From Bacteroidota bacterium (GTDB taxonomy: Bacteria; Bacteroidota; Bacteroidia; Bacteroidales; UBA4417): DNA of 64,000 nt. A program made the translations under genes and the position numbers. The stretch spans positions 65,274 through 129,273 of the forward strand of contig JAKLFM010000002.1 of NCBI GenBank assembly GCA_022711175.1, in the 5' to 3' direction. The notes below the pieces were generated by a model, which was not told where the DNA came from, did no database searches, and worked only from the letters and a program-made list of their open reading frames with translations. Numbering within the stretch: position 1 is the stretch's first letter; every line of letters starts with the position of its first letter. Below are positions 49,833-55,214 of this stretch, in pieces.

Positions 49833-50843
49833 TTATTTGATCAGTTCAAACCTGATGCTTTCAACACTGTTGATAGCCCTGTCGGAAAAGAAATCGGCGG
49901 CTGGAAATATCCTGAAGGCGCCTCCATCCTGGTTTTGTGGCATCGGAACCATGAGAAACTCTGCCTGGTCGTTACGGTTCATTACTTCGCTATATGTAAA
50001 CGCGCCATGGTAACCGTCTTTCCCGGTGATGATGAACAATCCTTTCTGAAGGTTTTCACGCGTAAGTGGGAAGTGCTGAGCAAGGATTTGTTTCAGCATC
50101 ACCCCTTCGAACGGCGTTGTACTGTGGATTCCCCGTCCGCGTCCGTAAAAAACGGTCGGGAACACGTAACTGGTGTTTTGTTCCGAAAGTTTGTTGATCG
50201 TTTCAACGTATCGGTCGCCATCGGAAACTGTAAAACTTTCGGCAAACATCGGGCTCATTCCTTTCACGATGTTAAATTTTCCTTTGAAAGATTTCACTGT
50301 GATTTTTACAGGGTTGCTGATGTTTCGTTCGGTTAGCAAATCGCTGGCAACCACAAGTTTGTTTTCAATGGGAAGATCCCAGAGTTCCTTGGTTTTGGAA
50401 GGTACAATACGAGCGACTTGTGTGGCAATTAGTATCTCGTGACGGTGTATCGGGTAGTACATTTCACCCCAGCTGAAAACTACTTTTTCGCCTGCCCGGT
50501 TCTCTACTTCAACATACAAATCAATGATAGGAGGGAACTCCGCTTCGTTTTTCTTTTGAAGGATACATGAATTTAAAATATCATACAAGGAATAACCATC
50601 GTACCGGTAAGCGCCGACAAAAGCATCTTTTCCGTTTTTCAGCTGATCTTCCTTCACGATTACTGACCGCATGGGCAGTTTCGAGAAATCAACCATTCCG
50701 GGATTGGCAATTTCGCCGGAAATTTCAATGGATGGTGCTGTGAGTTGGTGGGTTTCGGCATCATCATAGAAATCGTTGGTTTGTCCGAAACCTTTGATAC
50801 TCAGAAAGAGGCAAACTGTTAAAAAGAAAGAGATGTTTTTCAT
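49833..50843 (-). CDS. Periplasmic protein with two sulfite-oxidase-like domains, no molybdenum Cys
   Basis: A 336-residue exported protein (signal peptide MKNISFFLTVCLFLSIKGFGQ). Two halves each recall the molybdopterin-binding fold of the sulfite oxidase superfamily: EISGEIANPGMVDFSKLPMRSV with YDGYSLYDILNSC in the first (about 40-175), and NIVKGMSPMFAESF with STTPFEGVMLKQILAQH and IITGKDGYHGAFTYSEV in the second. The Cys that ligates molybdenum in true enzymes is missing in both, so catalysis with Moco is unlikely and a binding role is more plausible. It is the last gene of the TonB operon (21-base gap). Family assignment is by fold resemblance only. Confidence 0.6.
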   Translation of the reverse strand: MKNISFFLTVCLFLSIKGFGQTNDFYDDAETHQLTAPSIEISGEIANPGMVDFSKLPMRSVIVKEDQLKNGKDAFVGAYRYDGYSLYDILNSCILQKKNEAEFPPIIDLYVEVENRAGEKVVFSWGEMYYPIHRHEILIATQVARIVPSKTKELWDLPIENKLVVASDLLTERNISNPVKITVKSFKGKFNIVKGMSPMFAESFTVSDGDRYVETINKLSEQNTSYVFPTVFYGRGRGIHSTTPFEGVMLKQILAQHFPLTRENLQKGLFIITGKDGYHGAFTYSEVMNRNDQAEFLMVPMPQNQDGGAFRIFPAADFFSDRAINSVESIRFELIK

Positions 50844-50864
50844 GGTAAGGTAGTATTTTGATTA

Positions 50865-53219
50865 TCAGAATTTTGCTTGAACTTCCAAAGTAATGAACCG
50901 CCCCGGGCAAACTGCATATTTGCTGTCGTAATATTTGGTGTCGGCTAGGTTTTGAACATTAAGCGCCAGCGTGTAATGGTTTTTAATCTCTTTCCAAAGC
51001 CTGGCATCAATGGTTGTATAAGCCGGATATTGATCGGAGCCTACAATTTCGTCCCAAATATTCTGATCGTTGACGTATTGCGAACCGGTGTATCGTACAG
51101 ATGCAGAAGCATTTACAAATTTACTCCTGAATGTCACTCCCGCATTGGCCATGTGCCTGGGCACATCAGTCAGAAAATTGCCCGAAAGGTCAATGGTATC
51201 GGTTACAGTGAGCTTAGTATAGGAACCTATCACCGAATGTGTGTAGGTGTAATTTGCGAAGGCCGATATTTTTTCGCTCAGGTTGTAACGCAACTCAGTT
51301 TCGGCACCGAATATTTTTACTTTGCTGATGTTCGACCGCAACATGATGGGACGTTCGCCAAAACCCATGTCAATTGTCTGACCATTGGTTATGTAATACT
51401 GAAAGTCCTTTCCCTGCGAGAAATAAACCGATGCCGATAACTGTATCTTGCTAAGTATCAGTACATCGGCACCAGTTTCAATATTCGTAAGGTACTCAGG
51501 GTTCAACGACGGATTGGCGATCTTGAATCCGCCTTTGATGCGGCCCGAACGGCAGAGGTCTTCAAGTGCCGATGCCCTGAACCCTCTCGAAACCTGAGCA
51601 TAAACCCTCGAATCTTCATTCCACTTGTACTGGGCCGAAAACCTTGGGCTTAAAGCCCGCCAAGTCTGAGACTTCATTTCGGGAACCTGGTAACTTTGCA
51701 TGAACTGCGTTTCGGAAGTGGGAGCCTCAATGCGGAACGAACCATCGTAAAAATGGGACACATCGTAGCGCAGGCCTGCAGTCAGCTTGATTTTGTCACC
51801 CGGTAAAACCATTTCATCCTGCGCAAAAACCGCCGAAGTGAGGATTTTGCCTTCGTTATATACTATATCCGTCGAGGTGTAATATTCATCGTAAGCATCA
51901 ACGCTGCCGTTTTTAATATCAAATCCAGCCGTGATCTTGTGAATCCGTCCTGCGCTGAAAGTTGCCGAGTTGATCCAACCCAGGTCGCGGCGCACCGAAA
52001 GCACATTGTACCAGGTATAATCGTCCTTGAGGTATTCGTTTACCTTTTTGTAGTCTTCGGTAAGCATGTAAACTGATGATCGCAGGGTTGTTTTTTTGAC
52101 CCGGCCCTGGTAATTCATGGTAATACCATATGAATCGTGGTCGGTGGCATTTCCGTCGGGTTGATAGACTTTTTCACCTGTGCCGCGGTTGTCGTTATAA
52201 TAGTTTACGCTGGCTTCGAGCCTGTGATTGTTTTTGAAGATTAGTCCGCCTTTTACCATGCTGCCGGCCTCTTTCATATTCGATTTCACGATGTATGGAT
52301 TGGCTGCAATATCTGCTTCTGACTGTGTAATATAGCCATCGCTTTTTTTGGCAAAAAAGTTCGCATTCCAGAATCGTGAAATTCCTGCTTTGTCAGGTTT
52401 TGAAGACTTTCCGGCACTGATCCGTCCGCCCATAGTGTTGAAGGTGCCGTATTCCAGCGAAGCACTTATCGAGAGTTTTTCATCCGGTCGCCGGGTGATA
52501 ATGTTGATGATTCCACCCATTGCATTTCCGCCATAAAGTGCTGACCCTGCACCTTTTATGACTTCGATTTTCTGTACGGCATTCATGTCCACCATGTTCC
52601 AGTCAACGGTGCCGCCATCGGATTTGTTCAGGGGAATTCCATCCATCAGAACCAGCACCCTTGCTTGTTCCTTTCCGCTCAGGCCACGCATTGTGACGGT
52701 AGCTTTTGTGCTGAAAATTCCGAATGGACGGTTATAATTGATACCAGGTGTATATTGAAGAACTTCATCAATATTCTGAACCGGTATGCTTTCCAACTGT
52801 TTAAAAGTCAATAGATTGACCCTTCCTGGAGCGTCAATTACCCTGTTATCGGTCCGGGTGGCGGTAATCACCACCTCGTCCATGTTAAGCAAGGCGGGTG
52901 TGAGGACGATGTCCTTAAATTTGTTCTCACCTTTGTTCAATTTATAACCGAGGCTGACTTTCTCATAAGATATATGGCTGATATACAAGGTGACAGAATC
53001 CTGCTTCAGATTGCATATCCTGAATTCGCCTTTAGCATCAGTGATGGTTGCACCATTGCCTTTCACAGTGACCGAAGCTCCTGAAATGGCAGCCTCACTT
53101 TTGCTGTCGATGATGCGGCCTGAGATACAAGCCTGGCTATAACTTTTGCCTGCCGCTAAAAGCAGCACGAGAACAACCGGCAACCAGAATAATTTAAAAG
53201 CTTCCCGCATCTGTATCAT
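50865..53219 (-). CDS. TonB-dependent outer-membrane receptor
   Basis: A 784-residue receptor of the BtuB/FepA-like class. After the signal peptide (ending KSYSQ near residue 28) comes a carboxypeptidase-regulatory-like domain (ISGRIIDSKSEAAISGASV, about 32-110), a TonB box-like stretch (DEVVITATRT), a plug (PGINYNRPFGIF to GGIINIITRRP) and a 22-strand barrel ending in a C-terminal Phe (LEVQAKF). The start ATG overlaps the stop of the upstream lipoprotein (ATGA), a strong sign of coupling. Import substrate is unknown; the absence of a SusD partner argues against glycan import. Confidence 0.92.
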   Translation of the reverse strand: MIQMREAFKLFWLPVVLVLLLAAGKSYSQACISGRIIDSKSEAAISGASVTVKGNGATITDAKGEFRICNLKQDSVTLYISHISYEKVSLGYKLNKGENKFKDIVLTPALLNMDEVVITATRTDNRVIDAPGRVNLLTFKQLESIPVQNIDEVLQYTPGINYNRPFGIFSTKATVTMRGLSGKEQARVLVLMDGIPLNKSDGGTVDWNMVDMNAVQKIEVIKGAGSALYGGNAMGGIINIITRRPDEKLSISASLEYGTFNTMGGRISAGKSSKPDKAGISRFWNANFFAKKSDGYITQSEADIAANPYIVKSNMKEAGSMVKGGLIFKNNHRLEASVNYYNDNRGTGEKVYQPDGNATDHDSYGITMNYQGRVKKTTLRSSVYMLTEDYKKVNEYLKDDYTWYNVLSVRRDLGWINSATFSAGRIHKITAGFDIKNGSVDAYDEYYTSTDIVYNEGKILTSAVFAQDEMVLPGDKIKLTAGLRYDVSHFYDGSFRIEAPTSETQFMQSYQVPEMKSQTWRALSPRFSAQYKWNEDSRVYAQVSRGFRASALEDLCRSGRIKGGFKIANPSLNPEYLTNIETGADVLILSKIQLSASVYFSQGKDFQYYITNGQTIDMGFGERPIMLRSNISKVKIFGAETELRYNLSEKISAFANYTYTHSVIGSYTKLTVTDTIDLSGNFLTDVPRHMANAGVTFRSKFVNASASVRYTGSQYVNDQNIWDEIVGSDQYPAYTTIDARLWKEIKNHYTLALNVQNLADTKYYDSKYAVCPGRFITLEVQAKF

Positions 53220-54160
53220 TTCTGAATTTTTATTGCCATTTCAACCGTGCCTTCTGCTGATTCATCAGCGCGGATAACCTTGATGAGTCCGTACTTTCCG
53301 GCTTGCGTTTTAAAAGGAACTACCTTGCCTGCATAGCAATATTTACAATTGCCGCTTACTTTAGCTCCCTGGTATGCCGAAACTAACAGGCTGTCGTTTA
53401 CGGCAGCATCAAATTCGCTGGTCGTAATGAGGTTATTATCAACCGAATAATAGTCATACAGGGTAGCATTTTTAGCCGTCCAGTTGAGCAGAATGGGATA
53501 ATAGGCTACAGTAGCGGTGTATCCGGGACAGGTAAATGATGGAGACGGTTTGCCTGAAGTAATGTAGAAATACCCAAGAAAGTCAATTTCTGCTTCGTGG
53601 CCTGCTACCGTGCTTTGGTTGTATGTTAATCCTCCATCCAGGTCGAGAAACTGATCCCGGTTTTGGTTGTTCTGAAAACCAACGGTAACCGACGGATAGT
53701 AACTGATTGGCCCATAAGCAGTTCCTTCGGCTTTGTAAATTGTGAGCGACTGTGAGGCCGTCACACGGTCGGCATTCATAACGGTTACCAGCCAGGTTTC
53801 TGCTTCGGCTGATGATTTGCTGAAGGTGAGGTCGAGGTCAAGCCCTTCCTGTCCGCAGTAAATGCCGCGATCGTACTGCACAACTGTGTCGTTTCCTTCG
53901 ATACGGTCGATACGGATGTATGTAAGAGGTGCGCCGGCACCCGACGCCAGCACTCCGATCCTGATAGTACCTCCCTGGGGTATATCTGCACCGTCAGCTG
54001 TATAAGCCGTTCCTGATTTTAGTAATAGGAATGTTTTTGAAACGCTGTCATCCTTTGTACAGGATGAAAACATCAGGATGAAACTTAGAGAAACAAAAAA
54101 CCACATTCTGACGGGGCAGTAGTGTGGCTTCTTGTTCTTAGGGAAGGATGAAAACTTCAT
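53216..54160 (-). CDS. Lipoprotein of the TonB operon (second paralogue, CxxC)
   Basis: A 314-residue lipoprotein: hydrophobic stretch then SSCTK as lipobox (Cys near residue 34). It shares a layout and sequence with the lipoprotein at 54167: the VTVGFQNNQNRDQFLDL segment, the EAEIDFLGYFYIT segment, TTSEFDAAVNDSLLVSAY and the C-terminal AGKYGLIKVI ... TVEMAIKIQK. Unlike its paralogue it has a GNCKYCYAGK motif with CxxC, perhaps a metal site or disulfide. Starts at 54163 (GTG), 54160 (ATG) and 54106 (ATG, MWFFVSLSF) are possible; 54106 gives a more usual signal peptide. No named family recognised. Confidence 0.7.
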   Translation of the reverse strand: MKFSSFPKNKKPHYCPVRMWFFVSLSFILMFSSCTKDDSVSKTFLLLKSGTAYTADGADIPQGGTIRIGVLASGAGAPLTYIRIDRIEGNDTVVQYDRGIYCGQEGLDLDLTFSKSSAEAETWLVTVMNADRVTASQSLTIYKAEGTAYGPISYYPSVTVGFQNNQNRDQFLDLDGGLTYNQSTVAGHEAEIDFLGYFYITSGKPSPSFTCPGYTATVAYYPILLNWTAKNATLYDYYSVDNNLITTSEFDAAVNDSLLVSAYQGAKVSGNCKYCYAGKVVPFKTQAGKYGLIKVIRADESAEGTVEMAIKIQK

Positions 54161-54166
54161 CACTTG

Positions 54167-55048
54167 CTATTTCTGGATTTTTGCTGCAAATTCGAGTGTC
54201 CCGTCTTCAACTCCGGTAACTTCAACAATCTTCAGCAATCCAAATTTACCTGATTGAAGCTTGATGCAATAAACTTCGCCTGCTGTGAGCAGCTTGGCTT
54301 TCTTGAATTTGTTGTTGGGATCAAAAGCTGCGAGCACCTTGGCATCATTGGTTACGGCATCAAATTCGGCTGCTGTGAGAGCTGTTTTTACAAAATAGGT
54401 CACATTCTTGGTTGTGTAATTTGACGGATCATAATCACCGCCAAAAATCCCTGAAATATTCGATCCCGGTGCCGCGAGTGTCATCAGGTTAACATGGCCG
54501 GATGTGTTTTCGTAGAAGCAAAACAGGTCGATATCGGCCTGGTGATTGAAAGCCTGGTCAATGGTGTACAGCGTAGCCGTGTTATTTGCAAACGATGCAA
54601 ACCCGGGAACCGTTGTATTATTCTGAGCGCCCAGTTTCACCGACGCAAACGAAGCGATTTCGCCAAAAGAGCCCGTGATGGTAACTGAATCGGCAAAAGT
54701 GTTTCCGGCTATGTCAGTCGTCACAAACTTCCAAACCTCTTTGTCGTTGGTGTTTTTCAGGCTGAAAAAGTCGAAGGTAAACTGGGTTGAGTTGATCGTC
54801 GAATCAAGTATTGCCTGGCCATCGAGTAAGATCATGAATTTTACCAGGTTATCGGTGCCGTTGTAGTCGGCAGTAATGCCAAAACGCAAGGTGTCGGCAT
54901 AAGCGGCATTGGCATCGGCTGTAATATATCCCGCAGCATTTGACAGCTTGATTGTGGGGAGTACCGGTTCGTCATCTTTTTTACATGCCGTGGTTAACAT
55001 CAATGCTGATAAGGCTATCAGCGCAATAATCGAGGTAATCTTTTTCAT
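54167..55048 (-). CDS. Lipoprotein of the TonB operon (first paralogue)
   Basis: A 293-residue lipoprotein with signal MKKITSIIALIALSALMLTTAC and lipobox TTAC. The ATG at 55048 is used because the longer open frame to 55195 would include the promoter. The N-terminal half is an Ig-like or beta-sandwich domain (TADANAAYADTLRFGITAD). The C-terminal half (SVKLGAQNNTTVPGFASF, QADIDLFCFYENTSG, LTAAEFDAVTNDAKVLAAF, LQSGKFGLLKIV ... FAAKIQK) matches that of the lipoprotein that follows at a 6-base gap. Both end in KIQK. A surface-exposed substrate-binding role for the TonB receptor is inferred from the operon. Confidence 0.7.
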   Translation of the reverse strand: MKKITSIIALIALSALMLTTACKKDDEPVLPTIKLSNAAGYITADANAAYADTLRFGITADYNGTDNLVKFMILLDGQAILDSTINSTQFTFDFFSLKNTNDKEVWKFVTTDIAGNTFADSVTITGSFGEIASFASVKLGAQNNTTVPGFASFANNTATLYTIDQAFNHQADIDLFCFYENTSGHVNLMTLAAPGSNISGIFGGDYDPSNYTTKNVTYFVKTALTAAEFDAVTNDAKVLAAFDPNNKFKKAKLLTAGEVYCIKLQSGKFGLLKIVEVTGVEDGTLEFAAKIQK

Positions 55049-55214
55049 TTTGATAATTTTTCGATTAGAAAACAAATTCATAACGCCGGCAAAGGTAATA
55101 ATTTGGAAACACCTGCAAACTGCTGAGAAATATTTATTGAATTGCAAGCAATATAAACCTGCATGTTCACACCGATGAGGTTTACACATCAACACTTAAA
55201 CCTTACATATATCA
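55049..55214. other. Intergenic region before the TonB operon
   Basis: 166 bases between the stop of leucyl aminopeptidase and the first lipoprotein. It holds the operon promoter (55090-55119). It also has a 7-bp inverted repeat, TAAACCT 55154-55160 with AGGTTTA 55178-55184, but with a 17-base loop and no T-run, so not a convincing terminator. I see no B12 box or other riboswitch core. Confidence 0.4.
55090..55119 (-). promoter_or_regulatory. Bacteroidota promoter of the TonB operon
   Basis: On the minus strand TTTG at 55119-55116, an 18-base spacer and TACCTTTG at 55097-55090. It gives a leader of about 35-40 bases before the ATG at 55048 and shows that the operon is transcribed separately from leucyl aminopeptidase. 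Confidence 0.7.

Follow-up and report, generated by a model that had tools for sequence, protein, structure and literature searches.

TonB-dependent metal transporters are known for chelates of nickel, cobalt and copper (PMC3400609). The openly available full-text papers that were searched describe none for tungstate or molybdate. According to a review, molybdate is believed to diffuse through porins in the outer membrane (PMC8264917), and an account of tungsten uptake begins at the binding protein WtpA, which in P. furiosus favours tungstate ~650-fold, and leaves the outer membrane unmentioned (PMC10221389). Delivery by ModA to an outer-membrane protein, a different route, is cited for Pseudomonas in PMC11734730. 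The operon described here probably encodes those components of a tungstate/molybdate uptake system that act at the outer membrane and in the periplasm; the system would take up the free or chelated oxyanion, feed WtpABC and be under ModE-type regulation. As far as we have seen, both the substrate and the periplasmic partner of this TonB-dependent system are undescribed.

The window, the whole stretch of 64,000 nucleotides that was analysed, carries four genes that form a single tight operon on its minus strand, from 55048 to 49833. The first, LpA (54167..55048, minus strand), encodes a lipoprotein of 293 amino acids that is homologous to the product of the second, LpB (53216..54163, minus strand), a lipoprotein with an FN3-like N-domain and a HmuY/DUF4466-like C-domain. 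These are followed by the gene for a haem-receptor-like TonB-dependent receptor (TBDR) of 784 amino acids (50865..53219, minus strand) and by that for a periplasmic protein with two sulfite-oxidase (SUOX) folds and a Sec-type signal (49833..50843, minus strand). LpA and LpB are 6 bp apart, counted from the ATG of LpB at 54160 (a GTG at 54163 is the other possible start), LpB and TBDR share a 4-bp ATGA overlap, and 21 bp separate TBDR from the SUOX-like gene; the ORF coordinates thus confirm the packing, gaps and overlap given in the preliminary description. The start codon of LpA is likely the ATG at 55048, which leads to a clean lipobox (LTTAC), rather than position 55097; a longer GTG ORF, extending to 55195, crosses the promoter. 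TBDR is the only one of the four proteins recognized by Pfam and NCBIfam models. An Rfam scan of the entire window at the gathering threshold gave no Moco riboswitch and no other RNA. The window's genome has a third paralog of the lipoproteins (LP), which stands alone (G000:C217) with no linked TBDR and no palindrome of the kind described below.

Searching the genome collection with the SUOX-like protein yielded 41 loci, nearly all from MAGs of Bacteroidales/Lentimicrobium, whose contigs are short. The window and about 17 of the 41 loci share the order LP-LP-TBDR-SUOX, with gaps mostly of 0 to 100 bp, and because this order recurs the operon is a genuine conserved unit. The preliminary description had called for a check of gene order and had named its restriction to this genome as the contrary outcome; the order is kept far beyond it. 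At L033, L034, L035 and L040, WtpA follows SUOX and is itself followed by WtpB and WtpC where the contig extends. The L033 WtpA, at 380 bits, clears its cut-off of 355, and WtpB and WtpC are the best matches but fall under their cut-offs. The arrangements include TBDR-SUOX-WtpA-WtpB (L033), LP-LP-TBDR-SUOX-WtpA-WtpB-WtpC (L040/L171), LP-TBDR-SUOX-WtpABC (L161), ModE-WtpA-TBDR-SUOX-WtpB-WtpC (L158), ModE-TBDR-SUOX (L067), ModE-LP-TBDR-SUOX with WtpABC convergent (L170), and AOR-ModE-WtpA-SUOX (L046). In a broader set of loci drawn from the order, SUOX lies between WtpA and WtpB in L159, L160, L162 and L163, and LP-TBDR-SUOX stands beside Wtp genes in L161, L164, L169 and L170. The window's genome has WtpABC at another place on the same contig (C112, ~33-36 kb) and two AOR-family genes in C185 and C155.

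Two further proteins were seen near these genes. One of ~246 amino acids, with weak similarity to TiaS and to methanogenesis marker 11, is encoded ahead of LP-TBDR clusters of a second type (L011-L016, L073-L075, L168:1426-2205, L192). In several of these loci its gene is preceded by the palindrome, and in L168 the protein sits between WtpA and SUOX. The other, a secreted protein of 277-470 amino acids, adjoins TBDR at many loci that are not from Lentimicrobium (L161:12968-13840, L165, L169, L170, L175, L074, L075); that of L161, the sole one tested, carries a C-terminal sorting domain for type IX secretion (PF18962).

The distribution of these genes across genomes follows that of tungsten and molybdenum genes. 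In the window's family, the 9 of 16 genomes that have the SUOX-like protein are exactly those that have WtpA. WtpA is present in 38 of the 41 SUOX-bearing genomes as compared with 3 of 295 in a class-wide sample, and two of those three are the only genomes of that sample with a full-length double SUOX match. In a sample of 149 genomes spread evenly across the order, mostly one per family, WtpA is found in 32 of 33 genomes with SUOX and in 19 of the 116 without it (Fisher p 3.7e-18). In this sample 33 genomes have a strong LP match (E<=1e-45); all of them have WtpA or AOR (p 2.8e-15), and 32 have AOR. Physical linkage within 8 kb, for which the chance expectation is about 0.1-0.4 per family pair, was found for SUOX and WtpA in 16 of 32 genomes and for LP and ModE in 13 of 37, with about 0.1-0.3 expected for either pair, and for LP-SUOX, SUOX-ModE and LP-WtpA in 14, 11 and 8 genomes, respectively. 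The sole genome of the order sample with a double SUOX in which no WtpA was found (L202, G394:C209) has its SUOX gene next to a ModE-type gene.

The SUOX-like protein has no match among Pfam and NCBIfam models at E<=1, and a PDB sequence search with LP and SUOX profiles gave no match. Its structure model (pLDDT 84.9) matches sulfite oxidase over residues 194-336 (Z 13.3), and SUOX-like chains cover domain 1 too, so the two SUOX-like domains that had been read from the sequence are confirmed by predicted fold. No Cys is conserved among 29 homologs, hence none to ligate Mo, and the protein is therefore not a standard molybdoenzyme; its signal, read by eye, is Sec-type, which disfavours export with a folded cofactor. 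Its assignment as the periplasmic partner of the uptake system is supported, and it is linked more to WtpABC than to TBDR, as some SUOX-WtpABC loci have no TBDR alongside. A plasmid collection held no match to the SUOX-like protein and no close match to TBDR.

Residues 36-184 and 202-333 of the model each match PruR (7rkb with neopterin, Z 10.9, and 7kom, Z 11.2), which raises the alternative that TBDR imports a pterin, or molybdopterin or tungstopterin, for salvage, that its ligand in the periplasm is the SUOX-like protein, in the way that PruR binds reduced pterins, and that metal freed in the periplasm passes to WtpABC. Salvage would account for a SUOX fold beside a tungsten/molybdenum importer, and PruR, likewise periplasmic, also has no Mo-ligating Cys, but by the published description the entire cofactor would not fit into the PruR pocket (PMC13259868). 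Moreover, the downstream partner WtpABC imports the oxyanion and not a pterin, and a similar fold does not establish a ligand. We consider pterin salvage unlikely.

The SUOX-like genes have other neighbors and fusion partners. One group of Bacteroidales has a fusion of the double SUOX with an Asparaginase_2 domain (642 amino acids in L056, PF01112; L049, L051, L052, L054, L056-L059, L062, L068, L069 and L071, with the SUOX gene at ~8001 in most). The fusion genes mostly adjoin a MutS2-like gene and are preceded by the palindrome in L049, L054, L056, L062, L069 and L071. Close to wtpABC in the window's genome (L092:5472-6461), and in L095, there is also an Asparaginase_2-like gene. A NapH-like ferredoxin membrane protein adjoins SUOX in L158 (L158:11126-12526), and cytochrome c assembly-like genes do so in L169:8064-8792 (PF01578, weak); L175:8897-10763 has a neighbor of one of these two kinds. 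Such neighbors hint that some genomes may include a redox step.

Upstream of LpA is a Bacteroidota-type promoter, TTTG-N18-TACCTTTG (55090..55119, minus strand), with TTTG at 55119-55116 and TACCTTTG at 55097-55090. The consensus promoter of the preliminary description fits the Bacteroidota pattern and is supported by its position and by a similar sequence at relatives, but not by the count of the pattern, which at 2 in the window versus 2.34 expected is by itself at chance level. Overlooked in that description was a 24-bp palindromic operator of ModE-type layout, CGTTATGAATTTGTTTTCTAATCG (55062..55085, minus strand), which lies just downstream of the promoter near the likely transcription start. 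Of 16 LP-operon loci, 15 have such a palindrome between the promoter and LpA, directly after the former, and it typically reads CGATATGAA-N6-TTCTAAACG; that of the window fits the layout CGNTAT..A-N6-T..ATANCG, its right half deviating at two positions. The palindrome agrees in length, in spacer and in its outer bases (CGNTAT...N6...ATANCG) with the consensus published for ModE of E. coli, ATCGCTATATANNNNNNTATATAACGAT (PMC2700814). From this likeness we infer that the palindrome may be bound by ModE-type proteins here. One such protein, of 120 amino acids with an HTH domain only, is encoded in C152 of the window's genome, and those of the other loci are likewise ~80-141 amino acids long, HTH only, without molybdate-binding Mop domains (L185:3342-3704 and relatives have this single-domain form) and score below the curated ModE cut-off. 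Next to the ModE-type gene of the window's genome is a gene for a DUF364 protein (putative heavy-metal chelation).

A weight matrix trained solely on LP-operon sites was applied to loci that had been picked by gene content. It rediscovers the palindrome upstream of the ModE-WtpA operons of L117, L122, L136 and L157 and of SUOX-WtpABC in L034/L114. It also places the palindrome before WtpA in G012, in G015 and in the window's genome (score 12.9, weak). The AOR genes of the window's genome (score 26.1) and of other genomes are preceded by it as well. Among distinct genes, with a site score of at least 12 and the training sites contained in the LP count, the palindrome precedes 30 of 65 LP, 14 of 59 SUOX, 6 of 43 ModE, 5 of 49 WtpA and 5 of 7 AOR genes. 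The corresponding values are 0 of 92 for operon-internal TBDR, WtpB and WtpC, 2% for other ORFs, and 0-0.3% for shuffled upstream stretches.

Strong palindromes also stand before aldehyde dehydrogenase genes, of the L-glutamate gamma-semialdehyde dehydrogenase type (L122:2391, L195:8366, L197:2283, L199:6982; that of L197 matches TIGR01236 at 752 bits), and tungsten-free aldehyde oxidation is possibly switched with metal supply. The regulon thus extends beyond metal genes, and LP and AOR genes are seldom linked directly (1 of 40); both points agree with the view that the operon belongs to a tungsten/molybdenum regulon yet imports another nutrient required alongside AOR metabolism. We regard that view as very improbable: SUOX, and in places TBDR, lie inside wtpABC operons, at several loci between wtpA and wtpB.

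LpA and LpB share 28% identity (BLAST E 4.7e-21; 26% in alignment A2) and both end in KIQK. Their description as tandem duplicates holds as to homology and termini, and the low identity makes the duplication old. The CxxC noted in LpB is present as CKYC, but only its first Cys is kept among relatives (SGNCK), along with the Cys of TCPGY; as a functional motif it was dropped. The LpB structure model is confident (pLDDT 88.9) and comprises an FN3-like domain and the C-domain. Its best fold match is the DUF4466 protein 4ei0 (Z 15.7, 209 residues), with an rmsd of 19.6 that suggests a differing domain orientation. The C-domain matches PinO, a haem binder of the HmuY family, with a middling score (Z 9.7, 121 residues, rmsd 3.8). 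No HmuY model of Pfam or NCBIfam matches LpA, LpB or their relatives; a single-domain LP relative in L173 matches DUF4466 (PF14725) at E 0.003, under the cut-off. The preliminary description had asked whether the lipoproteins belong to a characterized family with a known ligand: their folds resemble those of DUF4466 and HmuY, and neither is that of a family with a known tungstate or molybdate ligand. By analogy with HmuY, this resemblance favours their proposed role as likely surface capture proteins. A search of viral_contigs with LpB found zero relatives.

TBDR carries a plug and a barrel (PF07715, E 6.7e-26; PF00593, E 2.3e-47). In haem receptors the FRAP-NPxL loop usually holds a haem-ligating His. 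The loop of the 43 related TBDRs has a DDxCRSG(x)4GFKxANP-type motif, also rendered DDLCRSGRIKGGFKxANP-type, with basic and Cys residues and no conserved His; Asp554 is conserved in 43 of 43, and Cys556 and Lys566 in more than 90%. Uptake of haem or an iron complex in the manner of HmuY-HmuR is extremely unlikely, since the haem-receptor likeness of TBDR (224 bits with TIGR01785, below the 317 cut-off; nearest solved chain PhuR) and the resemblance of the LpB C-domain to PinO are set against the lack of any His conserved at 90% or above in the 43 TBDRs, the lack of His or Met, as a haem-ligating pair, in invariant or near-invariant lipoprotein columns, and linkage, co-occurrence and a palindrome common to wtpA and AOR that point to tungsten/molybdenum genes.

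Gene order, co-occurrence and the common palindrome, all of them computational results, support tungstate/molybdate uptake. The preliminary description had proposed an uptake operon without SusD, which is supported, for a metal, cofactor or peptide; gene context narrows metal or cofactor to tungstate/molybdate and lends nothing to peptide uptake, which was set aside. The assignment of ligand is joint, tungstate and molybdate being indistinguishable here. For the direction of transport, the part played by each protein, and the regulator and how it acts, we propose the following. By their HmuY-like fold, the surface lipoproteins LpA and LpB would capture the oxyanion, bare or bound to a small chelator, perhaps as a W/Mo metallophore or in a pterin-bound form, and TBDR, as is general in its family, would import the metal into the periplasm using TonB energy. 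The double SUOX-fold protein could receive, release or shield the metal, as its gene position between WtpA and WtpB suggests, and WtpABC would carry it into the cytoplasm for AOR-family tungsten enzymes. A single-domain ModE-type regulator on the palindrome at 55062-55085 would repress the operon when metal is plentiful, a sign of regulation that we infer because the operator adjoins the likely start site. The fuller picture, that anaerobic Bacteroidales have a dedicated TonB-dependent outer-membrane tungstate/molybdate transporter with HmuY-like capture lipoproteins, a periplasmic double SUOX-fold binder of tungstate (or tungsten-pterin) and a ModE-type regulon, seems to us reasonably likely.

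Several observations count against tungstate/molybdate uptake. In the window's genome WtpA is not linked to the TBDR operon, and the wtpA palindrome is weak; 19 WtpA genomes of the order sample have no SUOX-like protein; some genomes have SUOX-WtpABC without an adjacent TBDR; and the SUOX gene of G394 is next to ModE with no WtpA found. Many bacteria acquire tungsten and molybdenum without such a system, presumably via porins. If tungstate/molybdate uptake is the correct reading, tungsten and molybdenum join the metals actively imported across the outer membrane, a likely substrate can be named for lipoproteins without a family match and for a DUF4466-like fold, and a non-enzymatic role is suggested for a SUOX fold.

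Known TonB-dependent metal transporters likewise serve trace-metal uptake, with none for tungstate or molybdate in the literature searched. The HmuY-HmuR system of Porphyromonas gingivalis, with PinO, Tfo and Bvu, resembles the operon in pairing a lipoprotein with an adjoining TonB receptor, in receptor subfamily and, with a middling score, in the fold of the C-domain. Unlike it, the operon has an extra FN3-like domain, two paralogous lipoproteins, a SUOX-like partner and a tungsten/molybdenum context, and no conserved His. The DUF4466 protein of Parabacteroides merdae (4ei0) matches the fold of LpB over its whole length, yet the sequence is below the family cut-off; to our knowledge the function of DUF4466 is not known. 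PruR likewise is periplasmic and has a SUOX fold without Mo-ligating Cys, but it has one domain where the SUOX-like protein has two, and is linked to DcpA whereas the SUOX-like protein is linked to WtpA. WtpABC and ModABC under ModE control share operons and genomes with the genes described here, as well as a palindrome with the ModE layout; unlike them, the system of the window has a regulator with an HTH domain only, and adds an outer-membrane receptor, lipoproteins and a SUOX-like protein.
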